From contig AP024674.1 in the NCBI GenBank assembly GCA_025998755.1, positions 186,001-250,000 of the forward strand: 64,000 bases of DNA, given 5' to 3'. The DNA comes from Armatimonadota bacterium (GTDB lineage: Bacteria; Armatimonadota; UBA5829; DSUL01). The notes beneath the pieces were generated by a model. The model searched no databases, was not told the origin of the DNA, and saw only the letters and a list, made by a program, of their open reading frames with translations. Positions 5,732 through 52,080 of this stretch are shown here, piece after piece. How positions within the stretch are numbered: the stretch's first letter is position 1; every line of letters starts with the position of its first letter. The position numbers and the translations under genes are program-made.

Positions 5732-7731
5732 CACACCCCCTCCTCCAGAGTCAGGCGGTAGAGGATCCCGCGGACCCAGTCGGCTTCCACCTGGCCGTCG
5801 CGAATCATCAGCGCGGAAGGTCGGGGCTCTATGCCTACCAGAGTGCGCCCGTGCAGAGGCAGACGCCGTCTTTTGCTGTCCAGGCTGAAGATCCGGCCCT
5901 CGCCGTCGGCAGGAAACATCACGAGAGCCCGTCCCTCGACACTTTCGGCCACGATCTTGCCTGCGCTCTCCAGTTGCCATCTTCCGTAGCCCAGGAATCG
6001 GGAGCGCCCCCACGGTTTCTCTGCTGCCAGCTGCAGCAGGATGGACAGATTGCTCATCGTCTCATCCGGGATCGGATCGCCGCCGTGGAACGTGTGGCTG
6101 TAATAGAGCGAGGGAATCCCGTAGACCGCGGCGGCCAGATAGGCCTCCTCCGCCCAGGATGCGCGCATCAGGCAGCCGTCCATATGCACCGGCGTGCCGG
6201 GGCAGCCCGCGGCGCAGATGCGAGCCCTCCGCTGGATCTCCAGAGGATCCCGGTGCACATCGTGCGTCCTGTTGCTGCTGAACAGCCCGTCGAAGCGCGG
6301 ATCGGCGGCGCTCCAGTTGATGTGCACATCCGATTTGACCTTCCGAGCCTCTTCGGCGAAGATCTCCAGCCACAGGCGACCTTCCCGCAGACCCATCCCC
6401 TGTTCTGGACGATGGTAGCGGGCATTTGCGGGACTGCGAAGCCGGAACAGGAAATCCAACTTTACTCCGTCCGCGTCCAGGCCGTTGTTTCCGAACATCC
6501 TGCGGCAGATCTCTGCCGCGTAAGCACGGAATCCGGGCGCAGTGGCGTCAATAGCTCCCTCCTCCGCATCGTCCGGCAAGCCCGGCTCCAGTACTTGGAA
6601 CTCCCTGGCCAGACGCCCGCGTCCACCTGTCAGGGCTGTATGGAAGGGGAAGTACCAGAGAAGCACTTTGTGCCCGCGGTCGTGAAGCCACCCTACGAGA
6701 TCAGGAAGATCTTCAAAGCGCGCTGAAGGAATCGGGTCCGCATTCCAGGGATCGGTCCAGAACGCGTCAATGATGACCGAAAAACCATTCCAGCCCAGCC
6801 GCCGTTCCAGCGTAGCAACCGTCTCCCTGACCCACTCCGATGTGTAAGCAGGGTGAGCCCAGTCGAGGTCCGTGCACCAGTGCGGCTGCATCTCGATGAT
6901 CTGGTCCCCATAGGTGCAGTAGAACGGGGCTTTCCACCAGCCGGGCAGGCCGCGATCCTCGATCGGCGTGACGCCGATCTGCCCGAGCTCCGCCAGCGCA
7001 GCCCGGAAGCGTTCAATCAGAGACCAGGGATCCTCGGCGAAGACGCACACAACGGGCGGGGGTGAGTAGTATTCCCCAGTCCCGGTCTGGATGTGCCCGG
7101 ACGGGCGGTCTACAAGGGCCTCCCAGGATGCAGTCAGAAGCATTCCTTCGGCATCCGGCAAGCCGGCCAGCCCTATTCCCGCCCATCCCGCAGGCATGCG
7201 AATGCCTATCAGGGCTGGAGGCGGAGTCAAATAGCTCTGTGTGGTCGTGGAGCACGGAATCATTGAGAACAGCGCCTCTTCCGCGTCTCGACCGTGCAAA
7301 GGGGCCGGCGCGAATCCTTCGAGCATGGAGCCAAGCTCCAGGCCGCGCCCATCGCGGGAAAACAGCCGCGTCTCGCGAACCTGCACAGCCGTGCTGGCCC
7401 TCCCACGGAAGCGCACCAGCAGGAACTCTTCGTGCGCCTCGAAGTCAAGGACGTGCTCCTCCCAGATTGCCCCCTGAGCTGAAAAGCTCAAGCGCCCGTC
7501 CGTCTCGGCGTTCCAGTGGCCCGCGACGGGGGTCTCCTCTTCCCGACCATCCGCAAGGGACGTTTTGACGCCACATGGAAGACGGAAGAGGGGTGTCTGA
7601 TCCGGGAGCCGCAGCCACGCCCAACCCGACTCTGGAGCCACCTCCAGCAGCCAGGTTCGGCCGTGCAGGAAGAGGTGTCCGCCGGTGACCTGGTCTCTTT
7701 CGGCCGTGGCCTGCGTGCCGCGCCCGCGCAT
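5731..7731 (-). CDS. Clan-D-like glycoside hydrolase (GH36/GH31 type), alpha-galactosidase-like
   Basis: 666 residues. An N-terminal beta-sandwich (about 1-270) is followed by a TIM barrel with WKAPFYCTYGD, GWNGFSVIIDAFW, HKVLLWYFPFHT and, around residue 420, DADGVKLDFLF. That KxD motif holds the catalytic nucleophile Asp in GH31/GH36 enzymes. A C-terminal beta domain follows. No signal peptide, so it probably cleaves an imported alpha-glycoside in the cytoplasm. The ATG at 7731 lies 3 nt after the stop of the oxidoreductase gene, with a CAGGAG site inside that gene's end. Exact family (GH31, GH36 or a relative) and sugar are uncertain. Confidence 0.75.
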   Translation of the reverse strand: MRGRGTQATAERDQVTGGHLFLHGRTWLLEVAPESGWAWLRLPDQTPLFRLPCGVKTSLADGREEETPVAGHWNAETDGRLSFSAQGAIWEEHVLDFEAHEEFLLVRFRGRASTAVQVRETRLFSRDGRGLELGSMLEGFAPAPLHGRDAEEALFSMIPCSTTTQSYLTPPPALIGIRMPAGWAGIGLAGLPDAEGMLLTASWEALVDRPSGHIQTGTGEYYSPPPVVCVFAEDPWSLIERFRAALAELGQIGVTPIEDRGLPGWWKAPFYCTYGDQIIEMQPHWCTDLDWAHPAYTSEWVRETVATLERRLGWNGFSVIIDAFWTDPWNADPIPSARFEDLPDLVGWLHDRGHKVLLWYFPFHTALTGGRGRLAREFQVLEPGLPDDAEEGAIDATAPGFRAYAAEICRRMFGNNGLDADGVKLDFLFRLRSPANARYHRPEQGMGLREGRLWLEIFAEEARKVKSDVHINWSAADPRFDGLFSSNRTHDVHRDPLEIQRRARICAAGCPGTPVHMDGCLMRASWAEEAYLAAAVYGIPSLYYSHTFHGGDPIPDETMSNLSILLQLAAEKPWGRSRFLGYGRWQLESAGKIVAESVEGRALVMFPADGEGRIFSLDSKRRRLPLHGRTLVGIEPRPSALMIRDGQVEADWVRGILYRLTLEEGV

Positions 7732-15252: not shown

Positions 15253-16056
15253 TTATTCAAGATCCCACAAAGTGTCGTCCCTGCTCAGATCACCGTATTT
15301 GGGCATCCAGCTGGCATGTCCGTCTGCCCAGGTGACGTTCAGCCCTTTCCTGTGGCGGGAGGCCGTGAAACTGTCGTAGCCTTTCGGTATGCCCCCGTAG
15401 CCTGGGTATTGTCCTCGGGAGATGGACGGCGGATATGCGTGGTCGGTGCGGATCCACTGCCCTTGATACTGCACCGGATGAGGCTGTGTCTCGATGATCA
15501 TTACCGTCTGGGCCGGGTTAGCGATCTGGGCGTCGCGGATCTGTGGCCCGCGCACCTGCCAGTCGGGGGTCATGTTGCCGAGATACCAGGAGTTGTATGC
15601 GTACGAGGCGGACCCCCCGAATCCCGGATTGAAGGTCAACGGGTCGGACGGGCAGATCAGGATCTTCCAGGAGCTGCTGCAGTACTTTTCCAGCCCCCAG
15701 TACACATAACCCCAGGGTGTCCTGCCGGGCACGCTCAGCAGGATAACGGAGCCCGGTCGGGGATCCTGCACGGTGAAGTAGCCACGGGGAAAGAAGCCGC
15801 GGTGGTCGTCCACATACATCATCATGGCCTTTCCCAACTCGTTTTGATGAGCCAGGCAGGCCGACTGCCGTCCCTTCTCTCTTGCGGCTGCAAACACGGG
15901 GAACAGGATGGCCGCCAGGATGGCGATGATGGCGATAACCACGAGAAGCTCAATCAGGGTGAATGCTTCTCGCCGGCCGCCAATCCGGCGGGCGATGACT
16001 GGTCTAACGTCCCCTGCCCGGGTGATGCGGGTCAACATTCCCATTCGTGCTTCCAT
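15253..16056 (-). CDS. Prepilin-like secreted protein with H-x9-DG C-terminal motif
   Basis: 267 residues. After a 31-residue basic leader comes the type IV prepilin/pseudopilin signal [19 protein letters not shown], the cleavage/methylation segment cut by prepilin peptidase, then the helix AAREKGRQSACLAHQNELGK. The C-terminal part has RHRKGLNVTWADG, which fits the H-x9-DG motif of DUF1559-type prepilin-associated proteins. The ATG at 16056 has a GGAG site six bases upstream. It heads the minus-strand glycan locus, with a palindromic site about 60 nt upstream. It is one of four such proteins in the window; the long leader is unusual among them. Confidence 0.88.
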   Translation of the reverse strand: MEARMGMLTRITRAGDVRPVIARRIGGRREAFTLIELLVVIAIIAILAAILFPVFAAAREKGRQSACLAHQNELGKAMMMYVDDHRGFFPRGYFTVQDPRPGSVILLSVPGRTPWGYVYWGLEKYCSSSWKILICPSDPLTFNPGFGGSASYAYNSWYLGNMTPDWQVRGPQIRDAQIANPAQTVMIIETQPHPVQYQGQWIRTDHAYPPSISRGQYPGYGGIPKGYDSFTASRHRKGLNVTWADGHASWMPKYGDLSRDDTLWDLE

Positions 16057-16114
16057 CGGACTCCACCAGCCTTCTCAGCAGATCTCGCTGGTCAGTATGT
16101 CATCACTAAGGTTC

Positions 16115-16128
16115 ATAATGTGCATATT
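16115..16128. promoter_or_regulatory. Operator-like site matching the one at 12127
   Basis: ATAATG-TG-CATATT, a near-palindrome whose left arm and flank match the site at 12127-12140. It lies about 60 nt upstream of the pilin-like gene at 16056, where a promoter for the minus-strand locus is expected. Confidence 0.5.
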
Positions 16129-16355
16129 CCCGGTGCTCGCGCCCCCCATCTGGCTTCGTTTTTGCTTTCAGGAAAACCGGAGGGGCAAAGCACCGGCGCA
16201 GCGTGGACGCTGCTGCTTGTGTGTTTTCAGCATACCGCACCTTCAGGGCGGAGTAAATGGGTTTTGCAACGAAAACTCAAGAAAACTGAGAGGAACGGGG
16301 ACACCGGACCTCTGCTCCGAAGTCGCCTCTAGGGCGATGCCGGGCAAGGTGCCGG
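16129..16355. other. Intergenic stretch between divergent loci
   Basis: No gene is seen here. It separates the minus-strand glycan locus from the plus-strand WD40 cassette, whose shared sequence begins about 16356. No strong terminator or promoter was recognised in it. Confidence 0.5.
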
Positions 16356-16416
16356 TTCTCGCTGCGCCCGCTCCCCGTCGCCGAAAACGGCTGCGAATTC
16401 GTGAGTGCGGAAATGC

Positions 16417-16446
16417 TTGACCGGGTGGCCGGAGGAGTGGTAAGAT
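16417..16446 (+). promoter_or_regulatory. Sigma-70-type promoter of the WD40 cassette, copy A
   Basis: TTGACC, an 18-base spacer, then TAAGAT, about 55 nt before the ATG at 16501. The same arrangement is at 49064-49093 and 58160-58189, inside the shared leader sequence, which supports it being functional. Confidence 0.7.
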
Positions 16447-16500
16447 GGGCCAGCGATTCAATCCGTTCGGAGCCGACGCCCCGTTCTTGAGAGGTGAGAA

Positions 16501-19219
16501 ATGAAGGAGAAGATCGTCAGGGTTGGGCGCGGACGTGTCCACTTCCTGGGCCGCCCGTCTGGCTGTGTTGTTCTGGGCCGGCTGGTTCCTGCTGTCCTGC
16601 TGGTGTTTGCCGCTGTCTGTGTCCTGTCCCCGCGACCTGCCGCCGCAACCCCCCCCCGACATCCTGTGGATGAGAGGAGGGCACGCGATTGATGTTTCCT
16701 CCGTCGCCTTGTCCCCGGACGGTCAGCTCCTTGCGAGCGGAAGTGGTGACAAAACCATCAAGCTCTGGCGCGTGTCGGACGGGACGCTGGTGCGCACTCT
16801 GACCGGGCACACGGGTTATGTTTTGTCCGTAGCCTTTTCCCCGGACGGGCGGGTCCTTGCGAGCGGGAGTTGGGACAACACCATCAAGCTCTGGCGCGCG
16901 TCGGACGGGACACTGGTGCGCACGCTGACCGGGCACACGGATAGTGTTCGGTCCGTCGCCTTTTCCCCGGACGGTCAGCTCCTTGCGAGCGGAAGTCCGG
17001 ACCAAACCGTCAGGCTTTGGCGCGCGTCGGACGGGATGCTGGTGCGCACGCTGACCGGGCACACGGATAGTGTTCGGTCCGTCGCCTTTTCCCCGGACGG
17101 TCAGCTCCTTGCGAGCGGAAGTTGGGACGAAACCATCAGGCTCTGGCGCGTGTCGGACGGGGCGGAGGTGCGCACTCTGACCGGGCACAGGGATTATGTT
17201 AACTCCGTTGCCTTTTCCCCGGACGGGCAGCTCCTTGCGAGCGGAAGTTGGGACGAAACCATCAAGCTCTGGCGCGTGTCGGACGGGACGCTGGTGCGCA
17301 CTCTGGCCGGGCACACGGGTGTTGCTTTCTCCGTTGCCTTTTCCCCGGACGGTCAGTTCCTTGCCGGCGGAGGCGAATATACCTACGGAAACATCAAGCT
17401 CTGGCGCGTGTCGGACGGGTCGCTGGTGCGCACTCTGACCGGGCACACGGGTTATGTTAGGTCCGTCGCCTTTTCTCCGGACGGTCAGCTCCTTGCGAGC
17501 GGAAGTTATGACAAAACCGTCAAGCTCTGGCGCGTGTCGGACGGGGCGGAGGTGCGCACGCTGACCGGGCACACGAGTTCTGTTAACTCCGTTGCCTTTT
17601 CCCCGGACGGTCAGCTCCTTGCCAGCGGAAGTTCGGTCGAAACCATCAGGCTCTGGCGCGTGTCGGACGGGACGCTGGTGCGCACGCTGACCGGGCACAC
17701 GTATGGTGTTGAGTCCGTTGCCTTTTCCCCGGACGGGCGGGTCCTTGCGAGCGGGAGTTGGGACAACACCATCAAGCTCTGGCGCGCGTCGGACGGGACA
17801 CTGGTGCGCACGCTGACCGCGCACACGGATACTGTTCGGTCCGTTGCCTTTTCCCCGGACGGTCAGCTCCTTGCGAGCGGAAGTTGGGACGAAACCATCA
17901 AGCTCTGGCGCGTGTCGGACGGGACGCTGGTGCGCACTCTGACCAGGCACACGGGTGATGTTAACTCCGTCGCCTTTTCCCCGGACGGTCAGTTCCTTGC
18001 CAGCGGAAGTAATGACGCAACCATCAAGCTCTGGCGCGTGTCGGACGGGTCGCTGGTGCGCACTCTGACCAGGCACACGAGTGAAGTTACGTCCGTTGCC
18101 TTTTCCCCGGACGGTCAGCTCCTTGCGAGCGGAAGTGATGACAGAACCATCAGGCTCTGGCGCGTGTCGGACGGGGCGGAGGTGCGCACTCTGACCGGGC
18201 ACAGGGGTTATGTTAACTCCGTTGCCTTTTCCCCGGACGGTCAGGTCCTTGCCAGCGGAAGTTATGACGCAACCATCAAGCTCTGGCGCGTGTCGGACGG
18301 GTCGCTGTTGCGCACTCTGACAGGGCACACAAACTTTGTTTTGTCCGTCGCCTTTTCCTGGGCCGAAAGGGCCGGGTTGCAGTGTATCGGGCAGAGAAGC
18401 CTTGATTTGTCCGTCCAGTCCGTCGCCTTTTCCCCGGACGGTCAGCTCCTCGCCAGTGCAGGTGAGGAAAGTGAGGGCAATAGTACCCTCAGGCTCTGGA
18501 GGATCTCAGACGGCAGGCTTATCAAAACCTACAGCCGGGAGGAAATGGGGTTCGAGCCTTTTGCCTTCTCTCCGGATGGAAGACTGCTGGCATGGGGCGA
18601 AGGCAGCTCGGTTGTCGCGGCCTTTGGCCCCGACTTATCGCCTCCGCTGACTCCTGCAGTAACAGACAGGGGCCGGTTCACCCGAATCAGCTCCGAACTG
18701 GCGGCCAGTTGGACGTCATCGGATCCCGAGACCGGCATTGCGGAGTATCAGTATGCCATCGGCACGTCTCCCACGGATCCCGGCAGCGGCTACGTTGTGG
18801 ACTGGCAGTCCACCGAGGCAACCACGAAGCGAACGGCAGCATGGCTGAGCCTGCAGGATGGCGTCACCTATTACTGGTATGTGAAGGCGCGAAACAGATA
18901 CGGTCTGTGGAGCGGGGTGGGGGTGAGCGACGGGATCACTGTGGACGGCAGTCCACCTGAGACTACCATCACTGGTGGGCTGGGAGGCTCGAGTAGGGAG
19001 CCTGCTTTTACGTTCACAGGAGTGGACAACCTTACAGCATCCTCTGCAATACAGTTTCAGTGGAGGCTTGATGCAGGTAGCTGGAAGTCTGCCGGTCGCG
19101 AGACGATCGTTCGCCTGAAAAACGTAGGGAAAGGCATGCATACGTTTCAGGTTCGGGCAGTTGACCTTGCGGGCAACGTTGATCCCACGCCGGCAAGTGT
19201 TACTTGGTCGGTTCCCTGA
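16501..19219 (+). CDS. Exported WD40 beta-propeller protein with fibronectin-like tail; signal peptide out of frame at a C9 tract
   Basis: The continuous WD40 frame runs from a TTG at 16523 (898 residues). The better start is the ATG at 16501: it has a GAGGTG site, and the same MKEKIVRV start opens the gene at 58244. That frame encodes a classical signal peptide (basic n-region, LVPAVLLVFAAVCVL, PRPAAA cleavage-like site) but leaves the WD40 frame at nine Cs (16649-16657). With eight Cs it would read straight into PPDILWMRGGHA. About 13 clean 42-residue blades (SVAFSPDGQLLASGSWDETI and variants) and two or three worn ones follow, suggesting two seven-bladed propellers. Then come a fibronectin-III-like domain (about residues 720-820) and an Ig-like end. 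Probably secreted or surface-bound; binding partner unknown. Confidence 0.85.
16649..16657 (+). repeat. C9 homopolymer tract at the signal peptide/WD40 junction
   Basis: Nine consecutive Cs. Eight would fuse the signal-peptide frame to the propeller frame; nine put the signal peptide into a short frame ending at 16692. The identical tract is in copy B at 49296-49304. Confidence 0.85.
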
Positions 19220-19269
19220 GAGCGAGCGCGAAAGAGGTTTTGTGCCGAAATGACAGGTGGTGGGCCGTG

Positions 19270-19339
19270 CAGTTGGTGATCCGTCCGCGTTCGTCTTCGG
19301 ACTTCCAGGTGGTCACGAGTGCCGAGGGGCCATAAGGCG
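19270..19339 (+). other. Remnant of the 3' end of a 58244-type gene
   Basis: Seventy bases after the WD40 stop match the last codons, stop and next bases of the large gene ending at 63388 (63323-63392) with one visible mismatch. In frame it still reads as the same C-terminus. The copy at 51931-52000 matches as well. It is a leftover of a deletion or fusion between gene ends, no longer translated with the WD40 frame. Confidence 0.8.
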
Positions 19340-19368
19340 CCCGGCGATATCTCCTTCATCTCACCTCT

Positions 19369-19396
19369 GCCCGCCCCTGCCGGGGCGGGCTTTTTT
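19369..19396 (+). terminator. Rho-independent terminator after the WD40 cassette
   Basis: Nine-base-pair GC stem (GCCCGCCCC / GGGGCGGGC) with a 4-base loop, followed by six Ts. Confidence 0.92.
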
Positions 19397-19924: not shown

Positions 19925-21547
19925 ATGAAACACAGCGGTATCGATCGGAGGAGATTCTTGCAGGCGTCAGCTGCTTCGTTCGCTGCACTGCCCTTCGCCG
20001 GCGCAGCGAGGGCTGAGCGGGTGAATACACAAACGGAGGTCGGTGCGGTGCCGGAGAGGGTTTTTCAGAAGCCGAGCGGGGAGCCATACAGCCTGTTGGG
20101 GAGCAGGATGGTGTTCACGAACTGGCTTTTCATCAGGCCGGGCAGTTTTGCTTGGGTGGATGAGCAGGGCAATCACGTCAGTGTGGGCGGCTCGGCGGGA
20201 ATGTGGGGGCCGCGCCTTACCAAGGCCGAGTTCCCCTATGGCATCAGGCTGGTGGCTCGGCCGGCAAGGCGAATGGGGCCTGTGATGACCCTCCCTGAAG
20301 GTCAGCCATTCTCATATCTGGTTTTGGGCTCCGTCATTCAGGATGGTGGGGTCTACCGCGCGTGGACCGGCCCCCACTACAGAGAGTCCACGGACGGTGT
20401 GAACTGGGGCTCCCCCGTCCCATGTCAGGCTGACGGAGGAGGTCCGATGAGCCTAGCCGGGGGCACGGTCTTCGTGGACCCGTCCGCCCCCCGGCACGAG
20501 CGCTACAAGTATGTGGGTGGCGGCCAAATCTCGCGTGAGGATTACGAGCGTTTCAAATCCCGGTATCCGGACCGATGGGAGCCCCGATCCGACCGGGAGA
20601 ACCACATCTTGGCGGTGGTCGGCGCGGTATCTGGGGATGGAGTGCACTGGAAAATTCTTCCCGAGCCGCTGGTTGTGGAACACAGCGACACGCACATTAC
20701 GGCCTACTATGACCAACGCCTGCGGAAGTATGTTATCTACACCCGCAACTATATGATCTGGCCCAGTGCCGATCCGAAGGCTGCGGGCACGGTGCCCTGG
20801 TATGAGATCGGTCGACGCTCCATAGGCCGGACGGAGAGTGATCGGTTCGAGGCGTTTCCGGTTTCGGAGGTGGTTCTGGTCCCGGATCCTTCGCTCCAGG
20901 CCTCAGAACTCCTTTACACCAACTGCCGCACGTGCATACCCGGCGCGCCGGACCTCCATCTGATGTTCCCAGCCATTTGGCATCTGATCGACGATACCAC
21001 CTCCACGGTTGTAGCTTCCAGCCACGATGGGAAGGTGTGGACGTATCTTCCCGGTGGTCCTGTTCTTGAAACACCGGAGTATGGCGAGTGGGACGGAGGA
21101 TGCCATTTTGCGGGGCCGAATCTGATCGAGCTTCCAAACGGAGACTTTGCTCTGCCTTACTGCGGCTACAACTTTCCGCACAAATATCCCAGGGGGCAGT
21201 TGAAGAACGGAGTCGGTTATGCCATTTGGCCGAAAGGGCGGATTATAGCCCTGGAGGCGGCCGAGCGCGGCGAGTTCACTACCGGGGCTTTCATGCCTCC
21301 TGGTCGGAAAATGAGGATCAATGCGGTTACAGCGCGGGCGGGTCATATCCGCATTGAGGTGTTGGACCTTGCGAAGGGTGTGGCGGCCGGCCGCAGCTTC
21401 GCAGACTGCGACCCGATAGTCGGGGATCGGTTCCGGCATCCGGTGACGTGGAAGGGCCAGGAGGATCTGGGCCACAGCCAGGGTGCTCCGGTGCGGCTTC
21501 GGTTCCAGATGGAAAAGGCGGCGATCTATGCCCTGGACTTCGAATAG
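19925..21547 (+). CDS. Tat-exported beta-propeller protein, putative glycosidase (GH43/GH32-like fold)
   Basis: 540 residues. The N-terminus has a twin-arginine signal (DRRRFLQASAAS) and an AGAARA cleavage-like site, so it is exported folded. The body shows repeated propeller-type segments with WxxxP and DGVNW/DGVHWK/DGKVWTYLPGGP motifs, like five-bladed glycosidases of the GH43/32/117/130 type. HFAGPNLIELPNGDFALPYCG resembles a blade bearing active-site acids. No family can be assigned with confidence. It is the first gene of the operon and would supply substrate for the sugar-acid pathway that follows. A GTG codon precedes the chosen ATG. Confidence 0.72.
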   Translation: MKHSGIDRRRFLQASAASFAALPFAGAARAERVNTQTEVGAVPERVFQKPSGEPYSLLGSRMVFTNWLFIRPGSFAWVDEQGNHVSVGGSAGMWGPRLTKAEFPYGIRLVARPARRMGPVMTLPEGQPFSYLVLGSVIQDGGVYRAWTGPHYRESTDGVNWGSPVPCQADGGGPMSLAGGTVFVDPSAPRHERYKYVGGGQISREDYERFKSRYPDRWEPRSDRENHILAVVGAVSGDGVHWKILPEPLVVEHSDTHITAYYDQRLRKYVIYTRNYMIWPSADPKAAGTVPWYEIGRRSIGRTESDRFEAFPVSEVVLVPDPSLQASELLYTNCRTCIPGAPDLHLMFPAIWHLIDDTTSTVVASSHDGKVWTYLPGGPVLETPEYGEWDGGCHFAGPNLIELPNGDFALPYCGYNFPHKYPRGQLKNGVGYAIWPKGRIIALEAAERGEFTTGAFMPPGRKMRINAVTARAGHIRIEVLDLAKGVAAGRSFADCDPIVGDRFRHPVTWKGQEDLGHSQGAPVRLRFQMEKAAIYALDFE

Positions 21548-21572
21548 CGGATCCGGGACCGCCGGCAGGTGG

Positions 21573-22973
21573 ATGGAAGAGATCGAGGCTCTGCAGGAAT
21601 GGCATAGCCCATTCCCGCACGCACGCCGCGAGGTCCGGACCGCACTGGTAGCATCCGGACAGAAACTGGTCGTGGTGGATGATGACCCCACCGGCACTCA
21701 GACGGTCCGCGATGTCGCTGTCTATCTGGACTGGTCCCCCCGCGCAATGCGGGAGGCCATCACTGCTGAGTACCCAGTGTTCTACGTGTCCACCAACTCG
21801 CGGAGCCTGTCATCAGAAGAGACGGCGGCCTTGGGTCGGGAACTGGGACGCATTCTTGCCGCCCAGGCGCGCGCGTCCGGCGTGCGCCTGCTGATCGCAT
21901 CGCGCAGTGACAGTACGTTGCGAGGTCACTTTCCTGTCGAGACTGACGCCCTGGCCGAAGGCTGCGGCATTGAACCGGACGGAGTGATTATCGCGCCGGC
22001 TTTTTTCGAGGGCGGAAGATATACGCTGGATGATGTCCATTTTGTGGCGCGCGAAGGGGAGGCTCTGCCCGTGGAGCAGACCGAGTTCGCGCGCGACCCA
22101 GTATTCGGATACCGCAGCAGCAACCTAAGGGACTGGGTGGAGGAGAAGACCCGAGGCCGATGGAGTAGGGATCGGGTGGTGTCGGTGTCGCTCGGGACCC
22201 TGCGTCACGAGGGGCCAGATGGTGTGGCCAATATCCTGTCCTCCTGCAAGGATGGGCAGCCGGTGATTGTAAACGCCGTCTGCTATGCGGACTTTGACAC
22301 CTTCGTCCTTGGGCTGCTCAAGGCGGAGGAGTTGGGGAAAACCTTCATCTATCGGTGCTCGGCATCGTTCGTGAAGTCGCGAGGAGGATTTCCGGAGGCA
22401 TCTCTCCTGAGGCACGATGAGATCTCGGCGCCAGGGGACGCAGCGCTTGTATTGGCAGGATCGTACGTCGAGCGGACAGGCTGGCAACTGCGCACGCTCC
22501 TAGACTCGGGAGCGGCCGAGGGACGCGAGCTTCGGGTGGAAGCTCTGGTGGACCAATCGATTCGGGAGCGGGAGATCCGCGACTGTGCGGAGTGGATTGA
22601 CAGGTGTCTGAACAGCAAGCGCTCGGCGGTCGTCTACACTTCGCGCGCGCGGCTTCCGCTGGAGGGACAGGCCTTTCTGGAGGCCGGACAACTCATCATG
22701 GCTGGCCTGTGCGAAGTGGTCGAGTTGGTCACTGTCCGTCCGGCGTCCGTCGTTACCAAAGGCGGAATCACCAGCATCGAAATCGCAAGATCGGCATTGG
22801 GGGCAAAACGCGCGTGGGTGCTCGGTCAGATCCTGCCGGGGGTGCCTGTCTGGCGTCTGGATGATGGCAGCCGTTGGCCTGGCGTTCCGCTGGTGGTTTT
22901 TCCGGGCAACGTGGGCGACGACCGGGCTCTTCTGCAGGTGCTCCATACGACCGCGGGAGGCTCGGGGCAGTGA
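21573..22973 (+). CDS. Four-carbon acid sugar kinase family protein (DUF1537; OtnK/DtnK-like)
   Basis: 466 residues. The N-terminal domain has LVVVDDDPTGTQTV, the hallmark of DUF1537 kinases, plus YVSTNSRSLSSEE and ASRSDSTLRGHFPVE. The C-terminal domain has TKGGITSIEIARSALG and a late WRLDDGSRWPGVPLVVFPGN, the nucleotide-binding half. Family members phosphorylate D-erythronate, D- or L-threonate or related acids with ATP. The next genes (oxidoreductase, NAD dehydrogenase, aldolase) suit such a pathway. The start is uncertain: the ATG at 21573 has a poorly spaced AGG, and one at 21528 would overlap the previous gene by 20 nt. It overlaps the next gene by 4 nt. Confidence 0.87.
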   Translation: MEEIEALQEWHSPFPHARREVRTALVASGQKLVVVDDDPTGTQTVRDVAVYLDWSPRAMREAITAEYPVFYVSTNSRSLSSEETAALGRELGRILAAQARASGVRLLIASRSDSTLRGHFPVETDALAEGCGIEPDGVIIAPAFFEGGRYTLDDVHFVAREGEALPVEQTEFARDPVFGYRSSNLRDWVEEKTRGRWSRDRVVSVSLGTLRHEGPDGVANILSSCKDGQPVIVNAVCYADFDTFVLGLLKAEELGKTFIYRCSASFVKSRGGFPEASLLRHDEISAPGDAALVLAGSYVERTGWQLRTLLDSGAAEGRELRVEALVDQSIREREIRDCAEWIDRCLNSKRSAVVYTSRARLPLEGQAFLEAGQLIMAGLCEVVELVTVRPASVVTKGGITSIEIARSALGAKRAWVLGQILPGVPVWRLDDGSRWPGVPLVVFPGNVGDDRALLQVLHTTAGGSGQ

Positions 22974-23950
22974 AATACGCAAACCTCGGTCGGTCTCCTT
23001 TGAAGGTCTCCAGGTTCTGCTTCGGGACTATGTCTTTCGGAGCAGTGAACGACGCTGCGGAGTCGGAGCGTTTGGTACGTCGGGCGCTGGATCTCGGTGT
23101 TAACTTTTTCGATACTGCCGTCGCCTACACAGACGGGCAGTCAGAGGAGTTCCTGGGGCAGGCCGTCAAGGGCGTGCGGGATCAGGTGGTGCTATGCACG
23201 AAATTCGGCTCCCGGCAGGAGATCGGCACGGGCATCAATGACCGGCAAAGCTCTCGCTATCATCTGGTGCGCGCGCTGGAGACCAGCCTGCGCCGTCTGC
23301 AGACCGATTACGTGGATCTGTATCTCCTCCACATGCCGCACCCGGGGATGAATCTGGAGGAGACCCTGTCGGCTCTCGACGACGTTGTGCGCCAGGGCAA
23401 GGCGCTTTACGTGGGTTGCTCTAATTTCCCGGCGTGGTTGCTCTGCAAGTCGCTATGGCTCAGTGACGTGCGGGGGTGGTGCTCTTTCCGGACGCTGCAG
23501 TCGGCCTACAACCTAATTGAACGGGGTGTCGAACTGGAGATCCTTCCGCTCTGCCACGCGGAGGGGATCGCCTTCATGGCGTACCGTGGACTATGCCGGG
23601 GGATACTTGCCGGCCAGTATTTGGAGTCCGGCGGAGATGCAGACGAAAGAGCCTCACTCCTCCAGCAGAAGCACGCGGCGGGCGTCCAGAGACTTCAGGA
23701 TTTTGCTGCTTCGACGGGTAGGACGCCGGCGCAGGCGGCTCTCGCGTGGTTGCTGGCCCATCCTGCAGTCACGTGCGCTGTCGTAGGTCCGACGCGCAAG
23801 GAGGAACTGGAAGAACTGGCCGCCGGCGTGGACCACGAGCTCACGGCCGATCAGCGGGAAGAGCTAACCGCGGCTTTTCCGGTGAAGATCGAGGACGACC
23901 AGATCGGCGTTCACGCTACCTGGCGCACCAGGCTGGATCTTTTGCTATGA
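22970..23950 (+). CDS. Aldo/keto reductase
   Basis: 326 residues from a GTG at 22970 that overlaps the kinase stop (GTGA), with GGGAGG upstream. Typical features are NLGRSPLKVSRFCFGTMSFG at the start, DLGVNFFDTAVAY (the Asp and Tyr of the catalytic set), VVLCTKFG (Lys), DYVDLYLLHMPHPG (His) and a C-terminal ALAWLLAHPAVTCAVVG NADPH-binding segment. A TIM-barrel NAD(P)H-dependent reductase of a sugar or keto intermediate is expected. Part of a tight five-gene run. Confidence 0.92.
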   Translation: MKYANLGRSPLKVSRFCFGTMSFGAVNDAAESERLVRRALDLGVNFFDTAVAYTDGQSEEFLGQAVKGVRDQVVLCTKFGSRQEIGTGINDRQSSRYHLVRALETSLRRLQTDYVDLYLLHMPHPGMNLEETLSALDDVVRQGKALYVGCSNFPAWLLCKSLWLSDVRGWCSFRTLQSAYNLIERGVELEILPLCHAEGIAFMAYRGLCRGILAGQYLESGGDADERASLLQQKHAAGVQRLQDFAASTGRTPAQAALAWLLAHPAVTCAVVGPTRKEELEELAAGVDHELTADQREELTAAFPVKIEDDQIGVHATWRTRLDLLL

Positions 23951-23964: not shown

Positions 23965-24925
23965 ATGGAGGACAGGGTCGGTTTCATAGGACTGGGAGTG
24001 ATGGGGGCTCCCATGGCCCGCAACGTCCGGAAAACCTTCCAGCAGGTTTGTGTCTACGACTGCGACAAGATCCGTCTCTCCGAGTTCTCCTCCGGTTTGT
24101 GTCTACGACTGCGACAAGATCCGTCTCTCCGAGTTCTCCTCCGGAGAGTATCGGATAGCGGATAGCGCAATGGAAACTGCCGCCGAGTCGGATGTGGTGG
24201 TCCTCTCGCTGCCCGGATCGGCTGCCGTGCTGGATGTGGTTCTCGGCAGCAAGGGCATCGCAGAAAGCCTGCCCGCCGGATCTGTGGTTGTGGACACTGG
24301 CACCACTGAGCCATCTGCCAGCCGCCGTATCGCGGCCGCGCTCGCCGAGAAATCCATCGGTTTTCTGGATGCTCCTGTCAGCGGCGGACAGAAGGCCGCC
24401 ATCGAAGGGACGCTCTCATTTATGGTCGGCGGCGATGAGGCGGTCTTCCAAAGGTGCCTGCCGGTGTTGCGGACGATGGGGTCCAGCGTGGTCAGGATGG
24501 GCGAGAGCGGCTCCGGATCGGTTGCCAAACTGGTCAACAACCTGATCGTCGGCGCACAGTTTGCGGCAATAGCGGAGGGCTTTACTCTGGCCGTAAAGAG
24601 CGGACTGGACACGGCTGTCCTGTACCAGGCCATTCGTGCAGGCTGGGCTCAGTCCAAGGTGCTGGATGTCAGTGCTGACGCATTTCTCCGGCGAGACTTC
24701 CGTCCGGGAGGTTCCGTCGACATTCACTGGAAGGATCTCGGTTATGCACTTTCGCTTGCCAAAGATGTGGATGTGCCGACTCCCGTGACGGCCATTGTCC
24801 ACGAGATCTTCAAGGCGGCCCGGGCGGGCGGGAAGGGTAGGATGGCCCAGCCCGCCATCGTAATGCTCTGGGAAGAGCTGCTGAACATTCAGGTAGGAAA
24901 ACAGGAAGATGAACAGACTTCGTAG
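23965..24925 (+). pseudogene. 3-hydroxyisobutyrate-dehydrogenase-family gene, frameshifted by a 49-bp tandem duplication
   Basis: The ATG at 23965 has GGGGAG upstream and opens with VGFIGLGVMGAPMARNV, the NAD-binding motif of beta-hydroxyacid dehydrogenases. A perfect 49-bp tandem duplication at 24047-24144 then shifts the frame. Past it the family pattern resumes: VVVLSLPGSAAVLDVV, VVDTGTTEPSASRRIA, FLDAPVSGGQKAAIEGTLSF, and KLVNNLI with the catalytic Lys. Removing one repeat unit gives a normal protein of about 300 residues. It would oxidise a hydroxyacid such as erythronate or threonate phosphate, or tartronate-like acids. The break may be real, reversible or an assembly fault. Confidence 0.85.
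24047..24144 (+). repeat. Perfect 2 x 49-bp tandem duplication
   Basis: The unit at 24047-24095 is repeated exactly at 24096-24144. Because 49 is not a multiple of three it breaks the dehydrogenase frame. Both the base before the unit and its end are GG, giving 2-bp microhomology. Confidence 0.95.
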
Positions 24926-25727
24926 CCGTATCGACACGGTTCGCCGGCCGCTACTGGGACTGGCGTGCCACAACTACAACCCGGCATTTCTGGATATGCT
25001 GGGCCACCTGGCAGTGGACGTTGTCTGGATCGAAATGGAGCACTCGCATATCTCCTTCGCGCAGGCAGCGGACCTTTGCCGCATCGCCGCCGGATTGGGC
25101 CTATTGACGATGATCCGCATACCAGACTCCAGGCGTGAGAGCGTCCTGAAGGCAGCCGAATGCGGGCCGGACATTTTGGATCTGCCGATGGCCAACTCCG
25201 TGGATGTCGTGACCAGCTTCATCAGTCACGCGCGATTCGCTCCAGAGGGGACACGGGGCTTTTTTGCAGCCTCGCGCGCGGTCAACTATGGCTTCGGCCC
25301 GGGAATAGCAGATATCCAGCAAGCCATCAACGAAGAGCTGTGCCTGATGGCTCAGATCGAAACGAAGGAAGCGGTCGTGCGAGCCGCAGAGATAAGTTCC
25401 GTGCCTGGCTTGGACGCTATATTCCTGGGACCTGGCGACCTTTCGGCCAGCTTTGGCGTCTCAGGGCAGACCTCGCACCCTCTGGTGCTGCAGGCTCTGG
25501 AGCAAGCTATTTGTGCGGCTCGTAAGGCCGGCAGGGTGGTGGCTCTGGCATCCGGGCCTGCCGACGTTGAGGAGTGGGCGGCCAAGGGGGTAGATCTTCT
25601 TTTCGTGGGAAGCGACATCAGTTGCTTGAAGCAAGGGCTGCTCGAGACACTCATCAGCGCGCGCGGGCTGTCTCGACCTAGCGTCGCTCCGCCACAGACA
25701 CCGCCACTGGCCGCGAAGCCGCTCTGA
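24909..25727 (+). CDS. HpcH/HpaI-family aldolase (2-keto-3-deoxy sugar acid aldolase type)
   Basis: 272 residues. Family features are GLACHNYNPAFLDMLG, DVVWIEMEHSHISF (a metal-ligand Glu), GPDILDLPMANSVDVV, LMAQIETKEAVVRA and GLDAIFLGPGDLSASFGV, the last matching the conserved LGPxDLS motif. Such class II, metal-dependent aldolases cleave 2-keto-3-deoxy acids to pyruvate and an aldehyde, or do related reactions on tartronate-type compounds. The ATG has GGAAG upstream and overlaps the end of the dehydrogenase gene by 17 nt, showing tight coupling in the sugar-acid operon. Confidence 0.9.
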   Translation: MNRLRSRIDTVRRPLLGLACHNYNPAFLDMLGHLAVDVVWIEMEHSHISFAQAADLCRIAAGLGLLTMIRIPDSRRESVLKAAECGPDILDLPMANSVDVVTSFISHARFAPEGTRGFFAASRAVNYGFGPGIADIQQAINEELCLMAQIETKEAVVRAAEISSVPGLDAIFLGPGDLSASFGVSGQTSHPLVLQALEQAICAARKAGRVVALASGPADVEEWAAKGVDLLFVGSDISCLKQGLLETLISARGLSRPSVAPPQTPPLAAKPL

Positions 25728-25781: not shown

Positions 25782-27461
25782 ATGGAGCCTGGCGTGTTCG
25801 GGTCTATTCACGCGCTCGACCTTGTCATCCTGGTCGCATACCTGGTCGTTCTCTCTTTGGTGGGCATTCTTTTCTCTCGCCGCCAGACCAGCCTGGAGCA
25901 GTTTTTCTTCGCGGGTAGAGGGATGAGCTGGGTGCCAGTGGGCATGTCGCTGATGGCCTGCCTGAACAGCGGCATAGACTATCTAATGCAGCCCTCTGCA
26001 GTGATGAAATACGGTCTGGTTCTCGTGCTCGGATCGCTGTCCTGGGTTCTACTGTGGCACTGGGTGTCGAGAGTGACCTTGCCGTTCTATCGCAGGCTCA
26101 ACCTTGTCACTGCCTATGAGTACCTGGAGCGTCGCTTCTCTCTGTCCGTGCGATGGATGGCTTCAATCATCTTCATCTTGTGGCGGGTTGGATGGATCGC
26201 CACGGCGATGTATGTTCCCTGTCTTGCCATCAGTGGGGCGACGCACGGGGCCCTGCCGCTTGTGTCCACAATCATCGTGCTGGGCAGCGTGGTCATCCTT
26301 TATACCGCACTGGGCGGGATGAGGGCGGTCATATGGACCGACATGATTCAGTTCTGCATTATGTTCGGCGGCCTTGCCGCAACGGTGGTCGTGGTGCTCG
26401 GCCACGTTCCTGGCGGTTTGAGCGAGGTCTGGCAGACCGCTGCTGAGGCAGGCAAGACCAGTCTGCTGACTGGCACCGAAGCGCCGCAAGCGGCTCGGCT
26501 AATGGAGCGGATTAAGCTGTTCTTCACCACCGAGATGACTCCCGTGGGGTTCTTCGCTGCTGTAGTGCTGGGCAGGATGGCGGTTTACACTGCTGATCAG
26601 GTAATGGTGCAGCGCTTTCAAACAGCCCGCTCCCTGAAGGATTCCCGCCAGGCTTTCATCATCAATGCCGTGGGAGATGCTTTGTGGACGGTGGGCCTGT
26701 CCTGCGTAGGGCTGACACTATTCGCTTATGTCGCAAGGGATGCGGACTTCGCAGATCTGCCGTCGGACCGTGTATTTCCCGCCTTCCTCGCAAGCAAAAT
26801 CCCTGTGGGGGTTGTGGGGCTTGTGATCGCTGCTATCTTTGCCGCCTCCCTCAGCTCCATCGCTTCGGCTGTGAACTCCTGTTCGTCGGTTGTTATCATG
26901 GACTTCTACCGTCGCATTCGCCGGCCCGCTGGGCCGGCAATTGTGCCGGATTCCTCTGAGGAGCAGCGCCGTCAGGTGCGCATTTCGCGATGGACTACTC
27001 TTGTGGTGGGTATCTGTGCCATCGCCCTGTCAGCGAATGTGGGGAGGCTGGGTGACCTGATTGTCATCGCGAACAAAGTCATCCAGCTGTTCACCGGTCC
27101 ACTCTTTGCAGTCTACGTACTGGGACTGTTTGTGCCTTTCGCAGGTACTCCAGGAGCCCTTGTTGGTGGTGCGGTTGGCGCTGCGGTCAGCCTTTACATA
27201 GCTTTTTGGAGTGGATTGGCCTTCGTGTGGCCTGCGACGCTCGGGTTTGTTGCGGCGCTGGCAGCGGGAATAAGTGTCAGTCTGTTTGGGGGACGTCCCT
27301 CGAAGGAGCAGGCTCGCTTCACGTTCCGGGGGGTGATGAACGGTCACGGCGCCGGCCGGGACGGAGTGATTGGTGCGGCTGGCTCTCTGATCGATAACGG
27401 GTTGGACTCAGCAACCCTGAAGTCGGTTGGCAGGAGTCTGCCGCATCAGGATAAACAATAA
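25782..27461 (+). CDS. Sodium:solute symporter (SSS family)
   Basis: 559 residues with about 13 membrane segments. Family marks are FFFAGRGMSWVPVGMSLMACLNSG in pieces, LVTAYEYLERRFS, ILYTALGGMRAVIWTDMIQF (the GGxxAVxxTDxxQ motif of the SSS family) and AAIFAASLSSIASAVNS. It is an inner-membrane Na+-coupled carrier, probably for the sugar acid used by the upstream enzymes. The 54-nt gap to the aldolase has no terminator. The C-terminal 60 residues are soluble and not conserved in character. Confidence 0.92.
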   Translation: MEPGVFGSIHALDLVILVAYLVVLSLVGILFSRRQTSLEQFFFAGRGMSWVPVGMSLMACLNSGIDYLMQPSAVMKYGLVLVLGSLSWVLLWHWVSRVTLPFYRRLNLVTAYEYLERRFSLSVRWMASIIFILWRVGWIATAMYVPCLAISGATHGALPLVSTIIVLGSVVILYTALGGMRAVIWTDMIQFCIMFGGLAATVVVVLGHVPGGLSEVWQTAAEAGKTSLLTGTEAPQAARLMERIKLFFTTEMTPVGFFAAVVLGRMAVYTADQVMVQRFQTARSLKDSRQAFIINAVGDALWTVGLSCVGLTLFAYVARDADFADLPSDRVFPAFLASKIPVGVVGLVIAAIFAASLSSIASAVNSCSSVVIMDFYRRIRRPAGPAIVPDSSEEQRRQVRISRWTTLVVGICAIALSANVGRLGDLIVIANKVIQLFTGPLFAVYVLGLFVPFAGTPGALVGGAVGAAVSLYIAFWSGLAFVWPATLGFVAALAAGISVSLFGGRPSKEQARFTFRGVMNGHGAGRDGVIGAAGSLIDNGLDSATLKSVGRSLPHQDKQ

Positions 27462-33568: not shown

Positions 33569-34351
33569 TTGTTTCAAATGAAGAAAGTTCAGAGTCTGCG
33601 TGGCTTCACCCTGATCGAGCTTCTGGTCGTTATCGCCATCATCGCGATCCTTGCGGCGATCCTCTTCCCGGTGTTCGCCGCCGCGCGCGAGAATGCCCGG
33701 AAAGCCTCGTGCATCAGCAATATGAAGCAGCTGGCCACGGCAATGCGCATGTACAGCGATGATAACGGAGACCGATTCGCTCCGGGAACCACGGGAGCCT
33801 GGGACGACAAGCACCTGTGGTGGTTCAAGGTGGACCCCTACATCAAGCAGATGCAGGGGACATCGCTGACAGGCGTGTATGTCTGTCCCTCCAGTCCGAA
33901 GCTGCGGGGAGGCAATGAGAACGTGCGCCGCTGCTACGGCTACAACGCGTATTACCTGGGCTCCGCGCCTGGCCAGCCCCAGGTTACGGCCAAGACGGCG
34001 GAGGCCCAGTCGCCCTCCACAACCATCCTGTTCCTGGAGTCGTGGCGGTTTGACGATGCTGCCTTCACCGCCAACACGCCCCGTGGAATCGGGTCGGCGT
34101 TCTGCTATCCGCCGGTGAAGGCGCCAAGCATCTGCCGGCCGGACTACGTGTGGCCGCCGGGCTGGCACCGAGGACTTACGAATGTGGCCATGGTGGACGG
34201 CCATGTCAGGTCGGTGAAGGTCTCACCGCCGCGCGAGACGCCCACCTCTCCCACTCCGGTGGCTGAGTTCACAGGCATTATGGAGAAGGGCGGGGCCGGC
34301 ACTCCGTATGACCCGGATCCGTGGTTCCGCCTGGACGGCCGCAAGCCTTAG
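33569..34351 (+). CDS. Prepilin-like secreted protein with H-x9-DG motif
   Basis: 260 residues. A short leader (MKKVQSLRG) precedes [15 protein letters not shown], then [19 protein letters not shown] and [13 protein letters not shown]. The C-terminal part has [15 protein letters not shown], a clear H-x9-DG motif, and a PYDPDPWFR end. It is paralogous along its whole length to the next gene (34454), including GTPYDxDPWFR. Its promoter is the strongest in the window, so the protein may be abundant. Likely cleaved by prepilin peptidase and assembled or secreted outside the membrane. Confidence 0.9.
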
Positions 34352-34453: not shown

Positions 34454-35248
34454 ATGTGCTGTGTGCGGAATCGGCGCGGATTTACGCTGATCGAGCTGCT
34501 GGTGGTGATCGCCATCATCGCCATCCTGGCGGCCATTCTGTTCCCGGTGTTCTCTGCGGCGCGCGAGAACGCCCGGAAGGCGGGCTGCATCAGCAACCTC
34601 AAGCAGCTAGCAATGGCCACCGGGATGTATGTTCATGACAACGGCAACAAGATGATGCCGGGCACAACCAGCGGCTGGGACAACAATCACCTGTGGTGGC
34701 TCAAGGTGGACCCCTATATCAAGACGCTTATCAAGAGTCCCAATGATGACAAGCTTCAAGGGGTCTATGTGTGTCCGTCAGCGCCCAAGCTGCCCGTTAC
34801 TCTGCAGAACTTGGCGCGTTGCTACGGATACAATGCCTATTACCTGGGCGGGCCGCCGTCATCCAACACCGTTCTGGACCCTCCCGGGAACCAGCCAACG
34901 TTCGTGGTGGCGGAGGGGCAGATTGAAAGTCCGGCCACCACGATCCTCTATATGGAAGTCTGGCGATATGACGCTCAGGCCAAGCAGGCATGGAAGAACG
35001 GGCACGGGACGGCGTTCGCGGTGCCGCCTTCGCAGAGCACGGTGTGCAAGCCGGACTATGTGTGGCCTCCCGGCCGGCATCGGGGGCTAACAAACGTGGC
35101 TTTTGTGGACGGCCACGTGCAGTCATTCAAATGTGCGGAGCCGGAGACGTCTGCTGCAGGGGCCTACTACGGGCTGATGGAGCGTGGCGGTACGGGCACT
35201 CCTTACGATCGTGACCCGTGGTTCCGCACCTGGGGCAGGAAGCCGTAA
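34454..35248 (+). CDS. Prepilin-like secreted protein with H-x9-DG motif (paralogue of 33569)
   Basis: 264 residues. A very short leader (MCCVRNRRG) precedes [15 protein letters not shown] and [19 protein letters not shown]. It shares HLWWxKVDPYIK, GVYVCPSxPKL, [11 protein letters not shown] and [15 protein letters not shown] with the previous gene, so the two are a tandem duplication that has since diverged. The H-x9-DG motif is intact. A strong terminator follows directly, so the pair is one transcription unit. Confidence 0.9.
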
Positions 35249-35280
35249 AAGACAGGGATTTCCTCCTTCTGACCTCAGAA

Positions 35281-35311
35281 GCCGCTGGACCGGCTGGTCC
35301 GGCGGCTTTTT
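35281..35311 (+). terminator. Rho-independent terminator after the pilin-like pair
   Basis: Eleven-base arms GCCGCTGGACC / GGTCCGGCGGC with a 4-base loop, followed by TTTTT; one G-T pair. Confidence 0.92.
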
Positions 35312-35632
35312 CGCGATCTTGGGCTTTGCAAGGGTAGTGACGGTCCATCTTGGGGGGTGGTCCATCGTTCGCGCCTCCGGCTTCCGGTATTGCGGGAACT
35401 TGTTTCCGGAACCTCCTCCAAGACGGTTGGGCTGTGCGCCGGAGGCGGAAAAGTCGCAACCACATCTGGCGTCCGCTGCGGTCTCGATAAGTGCGTCCTT
35501 CTCGGCGCGCTGTTCCACCATTGTGAGGGATGTGACAGCAGCTTATTGGTGGATTGGCGCACAGGGCGTCGCGGGAAAAGTGACGACCTGCTTCTGCCCC
35601 CCTTGACGCGCAGCTGCTTCGGCCTGTATCCT
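35312..35632 (+). promoter_or_regulatory. Upstream region and promoter of the DUF6785-type gene
   Basis: No gene is seen between the terminator and 35602. At 35603-35632 lies TTGACG, an 18-base spacer and TATCCT. Transcription would start near 35639, just ahead of the AGGAGG at about 35649. Confidence 0.55.
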
Positions 35633-35667
35633 TTCTGAAGCACTTGCAGGAGGTCTGGTCCCCGCCT

Positions 35668-37611
35668 GTGACCGATTCTGGCTCCCGACCCCCGTTCAGG
35701 GGCATCACGTGGAGGGCCGTCATTCTCGGAGTCGTGCTTCTCTGGCCCAACGCGTGGTGGATCTACATGATGGAGATCGTCCGCTACGCCGGGCATCCAA
35801 CTACCATCTCCCTGTTCTTCAACTCCGTGCTGGCCCTGCTGGGGCTCATCGTGCTGAACGGTCTGCTGAAGCGCTTCCGTCCTCAGTGGGTGTTCTCCCA
35901 GGTGGAGCTGCTGACCGTCTACATCATGCTCAATATCGGCAGCGCCCTGGTCAGCCACGATTTCATTCAAGTGCTCATCCCGGTGATGACGCACGTCTTC
36001 TGGTTCGCCAACGCCACCAACCGCTGGGAGGAGTTGATCTGGCCGAACGTTCCCGAATGGCTGTCGGTGCGAGACAGGGACACTCTGGAAGGTTTTTACA
36101 GCGGCAATGACCGTTTTCTGGCCTGGGACAATCTGCAACACTGGGTGGTCCCGCTGGCATGGTGGGGCTCGTTCATCATCGCGATGGTGCTCTCCATGCT
36201 CTGTCTGGTCGTGCTGCTGCGCAAGCAGTGGACGGAGCGCGAGCGTCTGGCCTACCCGCTGGTGCAGCTACCGCTGGATATGACTGCCGAGGGCGCTCCC
36301 CTCTTCCGCAACCGCCTGATGTGGCTGGGGTTTGGTCTGGCAGCGGCCATAGACATCTGGAACGGCTTCGCCTTTCTTTACCCCCAGATTCCCGGGATAC
36401 CCATCAAGACGCTGGACATCACGTCCAACTTCGCTGTGCGGCCGTGGAACGCCATCGGATGGATGCCGCTGTGCTTCTACCCCTTCGCCGTGGGGCTGGG
36501 CATCCTGCTGCCGCTGGACCTTTCCTTCTCCTGCTGGTTCTTCTTCATCGTCTGGAAAGCGGAGCGCGTACTCTCCGCGGTGTGGGGATGGGACAGCGTC
36601 CCAGGTTTCCCGTATGTCAACGAGCAGTCTTTCGGAGCCTACATCGGCATCGCGGTGTTCGCTTTCTGGGCCAGCAGACGCCATCTCTGGATGCTTGCGC
36701 GCGGGCTGTTCAACTGGAAGCTGGATCTGGAAGACCGTGGTGAGCCCGTGCCTTACCGGGTGGCGATGCTGGCGTTTCTGGGCGGCACGCTGTATATGCT
36801 CTTCTTCGCGATGCGCGCGGGGATGAGTTGGTATATCGCCGTGCCGTTTCTGCTGATATACTGGTTGCTTGCGCTTGCCATCACCCGGATGCGAGCGGAG
36901 CTGGGTCCTCCGGCTCACGACCTGCACGACGCCGGGCCAGACCGCATCATCACCACGATCGTCAACCCCCAGAACCTGGATGCGAAAAACCTGACCGCTC
37001 TCAGCCAGTTCTTCTGGTTCAACCGGGCCTACCGGGCTCACCCCATGCCGTTCCAGCTGGAGTCGTTCAAGATCGGTGAGCGCGTCAGGATGGACTACGG
37101 CAGGCTGGGCATGGCGATGGTGCTGGCCACGCTGGTCGGTACTCTTGCAGCCTTCTATGCAGTGCTTTCTCTTACATATAAGTATGGTGCTGCGACCAAC
37201 ATGGCCTGGCCCGACGTCCCTTTGATCTTCGGAGGCGAGCCATACGGCCGGCTGGACAACTGGCTGAAGATCCCTCCGGATCCGCGCCTGTCTCTGAACA
37301 CGGGGTTGGCCATCGGGACCGGTTTTTCTTTGACCATCGTCCTGAACTCTCTCAGGATGGCCATTCCCTGGTTTCCCTTCCATCCAGTGGGTTACGCCGT
37401 CTCCAGCTCGTGGAGCATGCATCGGCTCTGGATCTGCCTGTTCATCGCCTGGCTCATCAAGGCTGTGTTGCTCCGCTACGGCGGGCTTCAGACCTACAAA
37501 AAGGCTCTGCCGTTCTTTATGGGGCTTATTCTGGGAGAGTGCGTTGTGGGCGGCGCCTGGACGCTGATCGGGCTCGCGCTGGATATTCCCACCTACGCTT
37601 TCTGGCCGTAA
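35668..37611 (+). CDS. Large polytopic membrane protein (DUF6785/DUF6784-like)
   Basis: 647 residues from a GTG at 35668; a TTG at 35644 would start almost at the mRNA end, and AGGAGG sits 14 bases before the GTG. About 14 membrane segments begin with TWRAVILGVVLLWPNAWWIY. Conserved-looking parts include VELLTVYIMLNIGSAL, RKQWTERERLAYPLVQLPL, MTRMRAELGPP-type and a late MAIPWFPFHPVGYAVS. These match the pattern of DUF6785-type proteins, related to oligopeptide-transporter-like carriers and common in Planctomycetota and Armatimonadota. Substrate unknown. It stands alone between a terminator and the nitrogen island. Confidence 0.7.
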   Translation: MTDSGSRPPFRGITWRAVILGVVLLWPNAWWIYMMEIVRYAGHPTTISLFFNSVLALLGLIVLNGLLKRFRPQWVFSQVELLTVYIMLNIGSALVSHDFIQVLIPVMTHVFWFANATNRWEELIWPNVPEWLSVRDRDTLEGFYSGNDRFLAWDNLQHWVVPLAWWGSFIIAMVLSMLCLVVLLRKQWTERERLAYPLVQLPLDMTAEGAPLFRNRLMWLGFGLAAAIDIWNGFAFLYPQIPGIPIKTLDITSNFAVRPWNAIGWMPLCFYPFAVGLGILLPLDLSFSCWFFFIVWKAERVLSAVWGWDSVPGFPYVNEQSFGAYIGIAVFAFWASRRHLWMLARGLFNWKLDLEDRGEPVPYRVAMLAFLGGTLYMLFFAMRAGMSWYIAVPFLLIYWLLALAITRMRAELGPPAHDLHDAGPDRIITTIVNPQNLDAKNLTALSQFFWFNRAYRAHPMPFQLESFKIGERVRMDYGRLGMAMVLATLVGTLAAFYAVLSLTYKYGAATNMAWPDVPLIFGGEPYGRLDNWLKIPPDPRLSLNTGLAIGTGFSLTIVLNSLRMAIPWFPFHPVGYAVSSSWSMHRLWICLFIAWLIKAVLLRYGGLQTYKKALPFFMGLILGECVVGGAWTLIGLALDIPTYAFWP

Positions 37612-43755: not shown

Positions 43756-43786
43756 CCCCCGCCTCGAGAGTCAAGAGTCCGGCAAG

Positions 43787-43816
43787 AAGGCCCGGGGCCA
43801 GACGGCCCCGGGCCTT
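43787..43816. terminator. Bidirectional terminator between glnA and cheW
   Basis: Perfect 13-bp stem AAGGCCCGGGGCC / GGCCCCGGGCCTT with a 4-base loop. The A-start and T-end serve both strands for the convergent genes. Confidence 0.9.
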
Positions 43817-43844
43817 GTGCGTGTCTCCAGGGTTGTGAGTTCTT

Positions 43845-44324: not shown

Positions 44325-44325
44325 C

Positions 44326-48921: not shown

Positions 48922-49063
48922 TGTTGCTTTGCCCCGGCGATGGGCTGGAAGATTCCCGGACAGCCTCACCTGGCGACTACTCTCGGACGTGCGGCTGCCT
49001 CTCCAGCGCTGCGCCCGTTCCCCGTCGCCGAAAACGGCTGCGAATTCGTGCGTGCGGAAATGC

Positions 49064-49093
49064 TTGACCGTGTGGGCGGAGGAGTGGTAAGAT
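49064..49093 (+). promoter_or_regulatory. Promoter of WD40 copy B
   Basis: TTGACC, 18-base spacer, TAAGAT, as in copy A; two or three base differences lie in the spacer. Confidence 0.7.
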
Positions 49094-49147
49094 GGGCCAG
49101 CGATTCAATCCGTTCGGAGCCGTCGCCCCGTTCTTGAGAGGTGAAAA

Positions 49148-51880: not shown

Positions 51881-52029
51881 GAGCGAGCGCGAAAGAGGTT
51901 TTGTGCCGAAATGACAGGTGGTGGGCCGTGCAGTGGGTGATCCGTCCGCGTTCGTCTTCGGACTTCCAGGTGGTCACGAGTGCCGCGGGGCCATAAGGCG
52001 CCCGGCGATATCTCCTTCATCTCACCTCT

Positions 52030-52058: not shown

Positions 52059-52080
52059 CTGAGGTCTACGATTGGAATGT

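Follow-up and report, generated by a model that had tools for sequence, protein, structure and literature searches.

The closest described systems are tandem duplications within genes or in promoters, and short tandem duplications are an established type of loss-of-function mutation. In the lrp gene of Xenorhabdus, tandem duplications of 26–116 bp are reported as 3 of 25 mutations, and the study concluded against phase variation; phenotypic reversions appeared among the eight isolates tested, and none of these is described as a genetic reversion (PMC6786866). Those duplications resemble the one considered here in size class, intragenic place, and loss of function, but they come from selected mutants and from several isolates, whereas here there is one genome and no phenotype (PMC6786866). 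In Mycobacterium tuberculosis, a report on phase-variable tandem repeats describes promoter switching of metabolic genes, including glpD2, for glycerol utilization, and lpdA, and lists a 57-bp duplication in the dop promoter of strain Erdman (PMC12817950). The repeats of that species are similar to ours in unit size, in the change of copy number, and in having metabolic targets, and the idea of a switch acting on a metabolic gene is therefore not absurd; they lie in promoters, however, and are reported to vary across strains and within isogenic populations, whereas the present repeat is intragenic and the relatives hold one unit (PMC12817950). A 16-bp tandem duplication in SOG2 of Cryptococcus neoformans, whose reversion is shown in Figure 5 of the report concerned, is likewise a tandem duplication in a gene, but it concerns a fungus under drug selection and illustrates reversibility in principle only (PMC3464208). 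For Pseudomonas, the loss of duplications is described as falling with length and as reaching about 1e-4 per generation for one of 2.6 kb, which is the shortest tabulated (PMC12607827). Among the literature matches listed, no bacterial report describes an intragenic two-copy unit of such size as a switch. A 64-bp duplication has reportedly been found in phcA of Ralstonia.

The window, by which we mean the whole stretch of 64,000 nucleotides analysed, belongs to a one-contig genome of 3,289,812 bases and carries, at 24045–24144, two perfect 49-bp copies followed by two further matching bases. Unit 1 (24045–24093) and unit 2 (24094–24142), both on the + strand, were found with 100% identity by TRF and by exact repeat searches, and the GG at 24143–24144 prolongs the match. 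TRF gave a period of 49, 2.0 copies, and 100% matches, which bears out the exactness that an earlier note on this DNA had claimed for a repeat at 24047–24144, the same array in a different register. That note had also described the unit length as not a multiple of three, correctly (49 mod 3 = 1), and because 49 = 3 × 16 + 1, the reading frame shifts at the duplication. The new copy is one or the other unit, and the two are indistinguishable. A short palindrome, CTCCGGAG, was seen by eye at the junction.

Exact tandems with units of 10–500 bp were sought in the window and in 40 sampled 20-kb stretches of the same genome, together 860 kb without overlap, or 26% of the 3.29-Mb genome, and the 49-bp array is the sole one there with a unit of 22–500 bp. 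Apart from it, the scan turned up two arrays of heptamers and five tandems whose units are 10–21 bp long. In 80 loci from other genomes (913,649 bases), a search for units of 20–500 bp found no exact tandem at all. The array is thus not a matter of chance, because no other tandem unit longer than 21 bp occurs in the 860 kb and none occurs in the loci of the other genomes. The locus itself matches one place in its own genome. In the cases for which ORFs were listed, the 17-bp and 13-bp tandems are sited at ORF starts; at L141:6937–6974, an exact 17-bp tandem lies across the start codon of an ORF on the reverse strand (6001–6942) that is rich in CxxCH motifs, and doubles its ATG region. Repeats of other kinds were also observed. 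A segment of about 3 kb occurs as two direct copies with 99.1% identity (16360–19396 and 49007–52057), and each copy holds an array of 13 units of 126 bp, which, judged from its residues, reads like WD40 repeats. Stretches at about 15800–15970, 33600–33770, and 34470–34650 have numerous matches, of 68–95% identity, in the same-genus genome, such multiply matching stretches amounting to 26 rows in each of two comparisons, and the segment 34490–34550 appears by eye to encode a prepilin-type signal.

The array lies within a dehydrogenase gene, which it divides into two remnants on the + strand. The ORF of the N-terminal remnant (23965–24165) has 66 codons and ends at the TAG of 24163–24165; an alternative start, the ATG at 23947, overlaps the stop of the preceding reductase gene and gives 72 codons. 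From the ATG at 23965, 44 residues in the gene's frame, including a glycine-rich stretch, are followed by 22 out of frame, and the translation contains the residues VGFIGLGVMGAP, which we take to be the glycine-rich motif known by name from such enzymes. The gene's own frame is open past the duplication up to the stop at 24923–24925, and the ATG at 24170, which sits 4 bases past the TAG in that frame, is a possible restart for a C-terminal remnant of 251 aa (24170–24925). The nucleotide-binding loop and the C-terminal domain are not joined by a continuous frame, since the frame changes at the duplication and meets the stop at 24163. When the intact protein of a same-genus relative (L022:5905–6819) is aligned with the window, its residues 3–48 fall in frame 1 and its residues 23–305 in frame 2, and removal of one unit would, to judge from this alignment, give a normal protein. 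The duplication most likely shifts the frame and switches the enzyme off. The earlier note had proposed that an exact duplication disrupts the frame of a dehydrogenase in the middle of an operon; this is supported, and an intact relative with one unit exists.

Both domains of the beta-hydroxyacid dehydrogenase family were found in the gene: for 24098–24922, Pfam gave NAD_binding_2 with 120.5 bits, starting from profile position 27, and NAD_binding_11 with 110.5 bits. The intact protein of the relative scores highest in NCBIfam with 2-hydroxy-3-oxopropionate (tartronate semialdehyde) reductase (NF008592; 296.2 bits against a cut-off of 397), reaches 265.4 bits with TIGR01505 (cut-off 340.75), and passes the cut-off of none of the 16 NCBIfam families listed. 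By sequence, the nearest protein of solved structure is a tartronate semialdehyde reductase, PDB 1vpd (E 2.4e-65), with which the two Pfam domains and the glycine-rich loop are shared; unlike that enzyme, the window copy is split, and the score of the relative is below the equivalog cut-off. The dehydrogenase gene forms an operon-like run with four others, all on the + strand. These are a DUF1537-type kinase with SBD_N and NBD_C domains (21483–22973, listed from the first GTG, the real start being probably later), an aldo/keto reductase (22979–23950), an HpcH/HpaI-family aldolase (24909–25727), whose ATG overlaps the 3' end of the dehydrogenase gene, and a sodium/solute symporter (25782–27461), which is over the cut-off of TIGR00813. 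The kinase scores below the NCBIfam equivalog cut-offs, and the SBD_N/NBD_C pair is presumably what the name DUF1537 denotes. From this gene content, the operon may fairly be taken to serve a sugar-acid route. Another enzyme might substitute for the broken dehydrogenase, because the genome contains three further, weaker matches to it, with 34%, 28%, and 27% identity.

Among the 40 other genomes searched, one (G001) is a same-genus relative. Its locus L022, on CALCJH010000230.1, keeps the operon order with 75.6% DNA identity over 7.3 kb, and the dehydrogenase gene there is intact, with a single unit. The relative loci number 99, namely 19 from one search and the best 80 of 133 found in another, with L022 and the locus L003 that lies within it being one sequence and both counted. 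Three of the 99 do not cover the spot; the duplication occurs in none of the 96 that do, and all 96 are in one continuous frame. Two of the 96 have an in-frame loop of 10 residues whose sequence is unrelated, and a stop falls within the alignment in three relatives of low identity (L028, L059, and L049). Because the relatives hold one unit, the second unit, if real, was gained in the lineage leading to this genome. As for the age of the event, comparison of the downstream frame with L022 gave a dN of 0.124 and a dS of 1.001, hence a dN/dS of 0.124, to be read as a blunt clock because dS is near 1; the five neighboring genes gave 0.118, 0.172, 0.075, 0.092, and 0.125 in the same comparison. Had constraint been relaxed for much of the period since the two lineages parted, this ratio would be higher. 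No internal stop is present in the 275 codons of 24098–24922. The event is very young or is not real, because the downstream frame is without decay and the copies are identical.

We consider that a single, very recent, and spontaneous 49-bp tandem duplication, an ordinary loss of function with nothing to mark it as an evolved switch, is the best explanation of the locus, with a probability of roughly 0.64. One ancestral unit has been copied exactly and head to tail (100% identity), and the junction has a short shared sequence, a 2-bp overlap formed by the GG that the unit's ends have in common; the recent origin of the duplication is indicated by the identity of the copies, the low dN/dS, and the lack of stops, with the bluntness at a dS of about 1 noted above. 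Replication slippage or template switching at this 2-bp microhomology, present at both unit ends, probably made the second unit. Translation would then begin normally, be out of frame from the second unit on, and end at 24163, and ribosomes may restart at the ATG of 24170, which would keep the downstream aldolase translated. A protein started there would lack the beginning of the nucleotide-binding domain, with its glycine-rich loop, and is expected to have no activity. As with any short tandem duplication, slippage could remove one unit again and so reverse the change. Of the options that the earlier note had offered, a fresh mutation fits best, given the one unit in the same-genus genome, the intact downstream frame, and the 2-bp overlap at the junction. 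Two other origins were considered and rejected. Ku-type end joining is unlikely because a search of the genome gave no match to a Ku gene, the same search being positive in 1 of 14 control genomes (Bacillus subtilis), and a structured hot spot is not indicated, as strand folding across the repeat is no better than in shuffled sequences (z -0.30, with 81 of 200 shuffles as good).

A doubtful explanation, but one that has to be weighed seriously, is that the duplication is an artefact of assembly or consensus, in which overlapping ends were joined unmerged or the consensus slipped, and the gene in the cell, with a single unit, is unbroken. The downstream frame, which appears fully constrained, and the identity of the copies to the base would be expected from such an error. 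Against it stand the one-contig assembly of 3.29 Mb, of which the 800 kb sampled contain no N, and the absence of a second exact tandem with a unit of 22–500 bp in the 860 kb; the latter disfavors a systematic joining error, which we reject as a general cause, although a single slip is still compatible with it. What keeps the artefact in consideration is a second frameshifted gene in the window, which fits either decay or consensus error. This is the gene of a Y-family polymerase (impB/mucB/samB family; 52008–53340), which has one extra base at 52761 compared with the same-genus genome, and the break might be real decay just as it might be an error of the consensus. The frames were checked with 239 same-genus ORFs against the window and with 175 ORFs in the opposite direction of comparison, the comparison with G001 covering 42,748 window bases, and among the places inspected, 52761 is the one further case in which a gene clearly changes frame. 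A flagged row at 37618 falls between two ORFs, one at 41860 seems by eye to fall after a gene's stop, and gaps near 34351 and 34450 and before 53857 lie, also by eye, ahead of start codons; the rows at 43560–44372, 35130–35762, and 15851–16417 were counted as neither broken nor intact. Two further 20-kb pieces with long matches in the same-genus genome gave 15 rows of possible frame change, of which three places were aligned and each showed one-base gaps, by eye outside clear genes, and a third extra piece of 20 kb had short matches only in that genome. Around the polymerase gene, a heptamer array (14 copies of GTTGAAG, 53353–53452) lies between it and the next gene, and the same heptamer was also seen at L108:8580–8627, in 1 of the 40 sampled genome stretches. 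The next gene (53857–56994) reads, from its residues, like a DNA polymerase III alpha chain, and the two genes look like a broken mutagenic-repair cassette or the result of a consensus error.

It is very improbable that the locus is an evolved, reversible off-switch, that is, a contingency locus at which one or two units toggle the dehydrogenase and hence the sugar-acid pathway. The perfection of the copies, their being out of frame, and the intact coding capacity past the repeat would suit such a device, a possible restart codon would spare the downstream gene, and switching of metabolic genes through repeat copy number is reported at M. tuberculosis promoters (PMC12817950). The relatives that cover the spot, however, hold one unit, in L022 as in all 96 loci, and so have no repeat tract that varies or on which slippage could occur, and the 860 kb of the 3.29-Mb genome contains no other tandem of such size. 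Several loci of the same design per genome are usual for contingency loci, although not obligatory. The secondary structure across the repeat is ordinary, and the Pseudomonas duplications of 2.6 and 3.3 kb, those tabulated, are lost slowly, shorter ones being absent from the table (PMC12607827). The reversible off-switch that the earlier note had put forward as an option is therefore disfavored by the 0 of 96 covering relatives with the repeat and by the lack of a second locus in 26% of the genome, and there is no positive support for the locus having evolved to switch. A more specific proposal is a shade less probable still: natural populations would hedge their bets on sugar-acid catabolism by switching between one and two copies of the 49-bp unit, and a restart at the ATG of 24170 would protect the downstream aldolase from polar effects. 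Least credible of all is an old pseudogene fixed in this lineage, which would explain why the gene is out of frame but is rejected because the dN/dS of 0.124 past the duplication resembles that of the neighbors, no further stop occurs in 24098–24922, and the copies are identical.

With a recent spontaneous duplication as the preferred reading, the sugar-acid pathway of this organism should be called neither broken nor switchable ahead of a check of the reads. The locus, which carries little weight alone, shows how a young intragenic tandem duplication appears in a single-contig genome.
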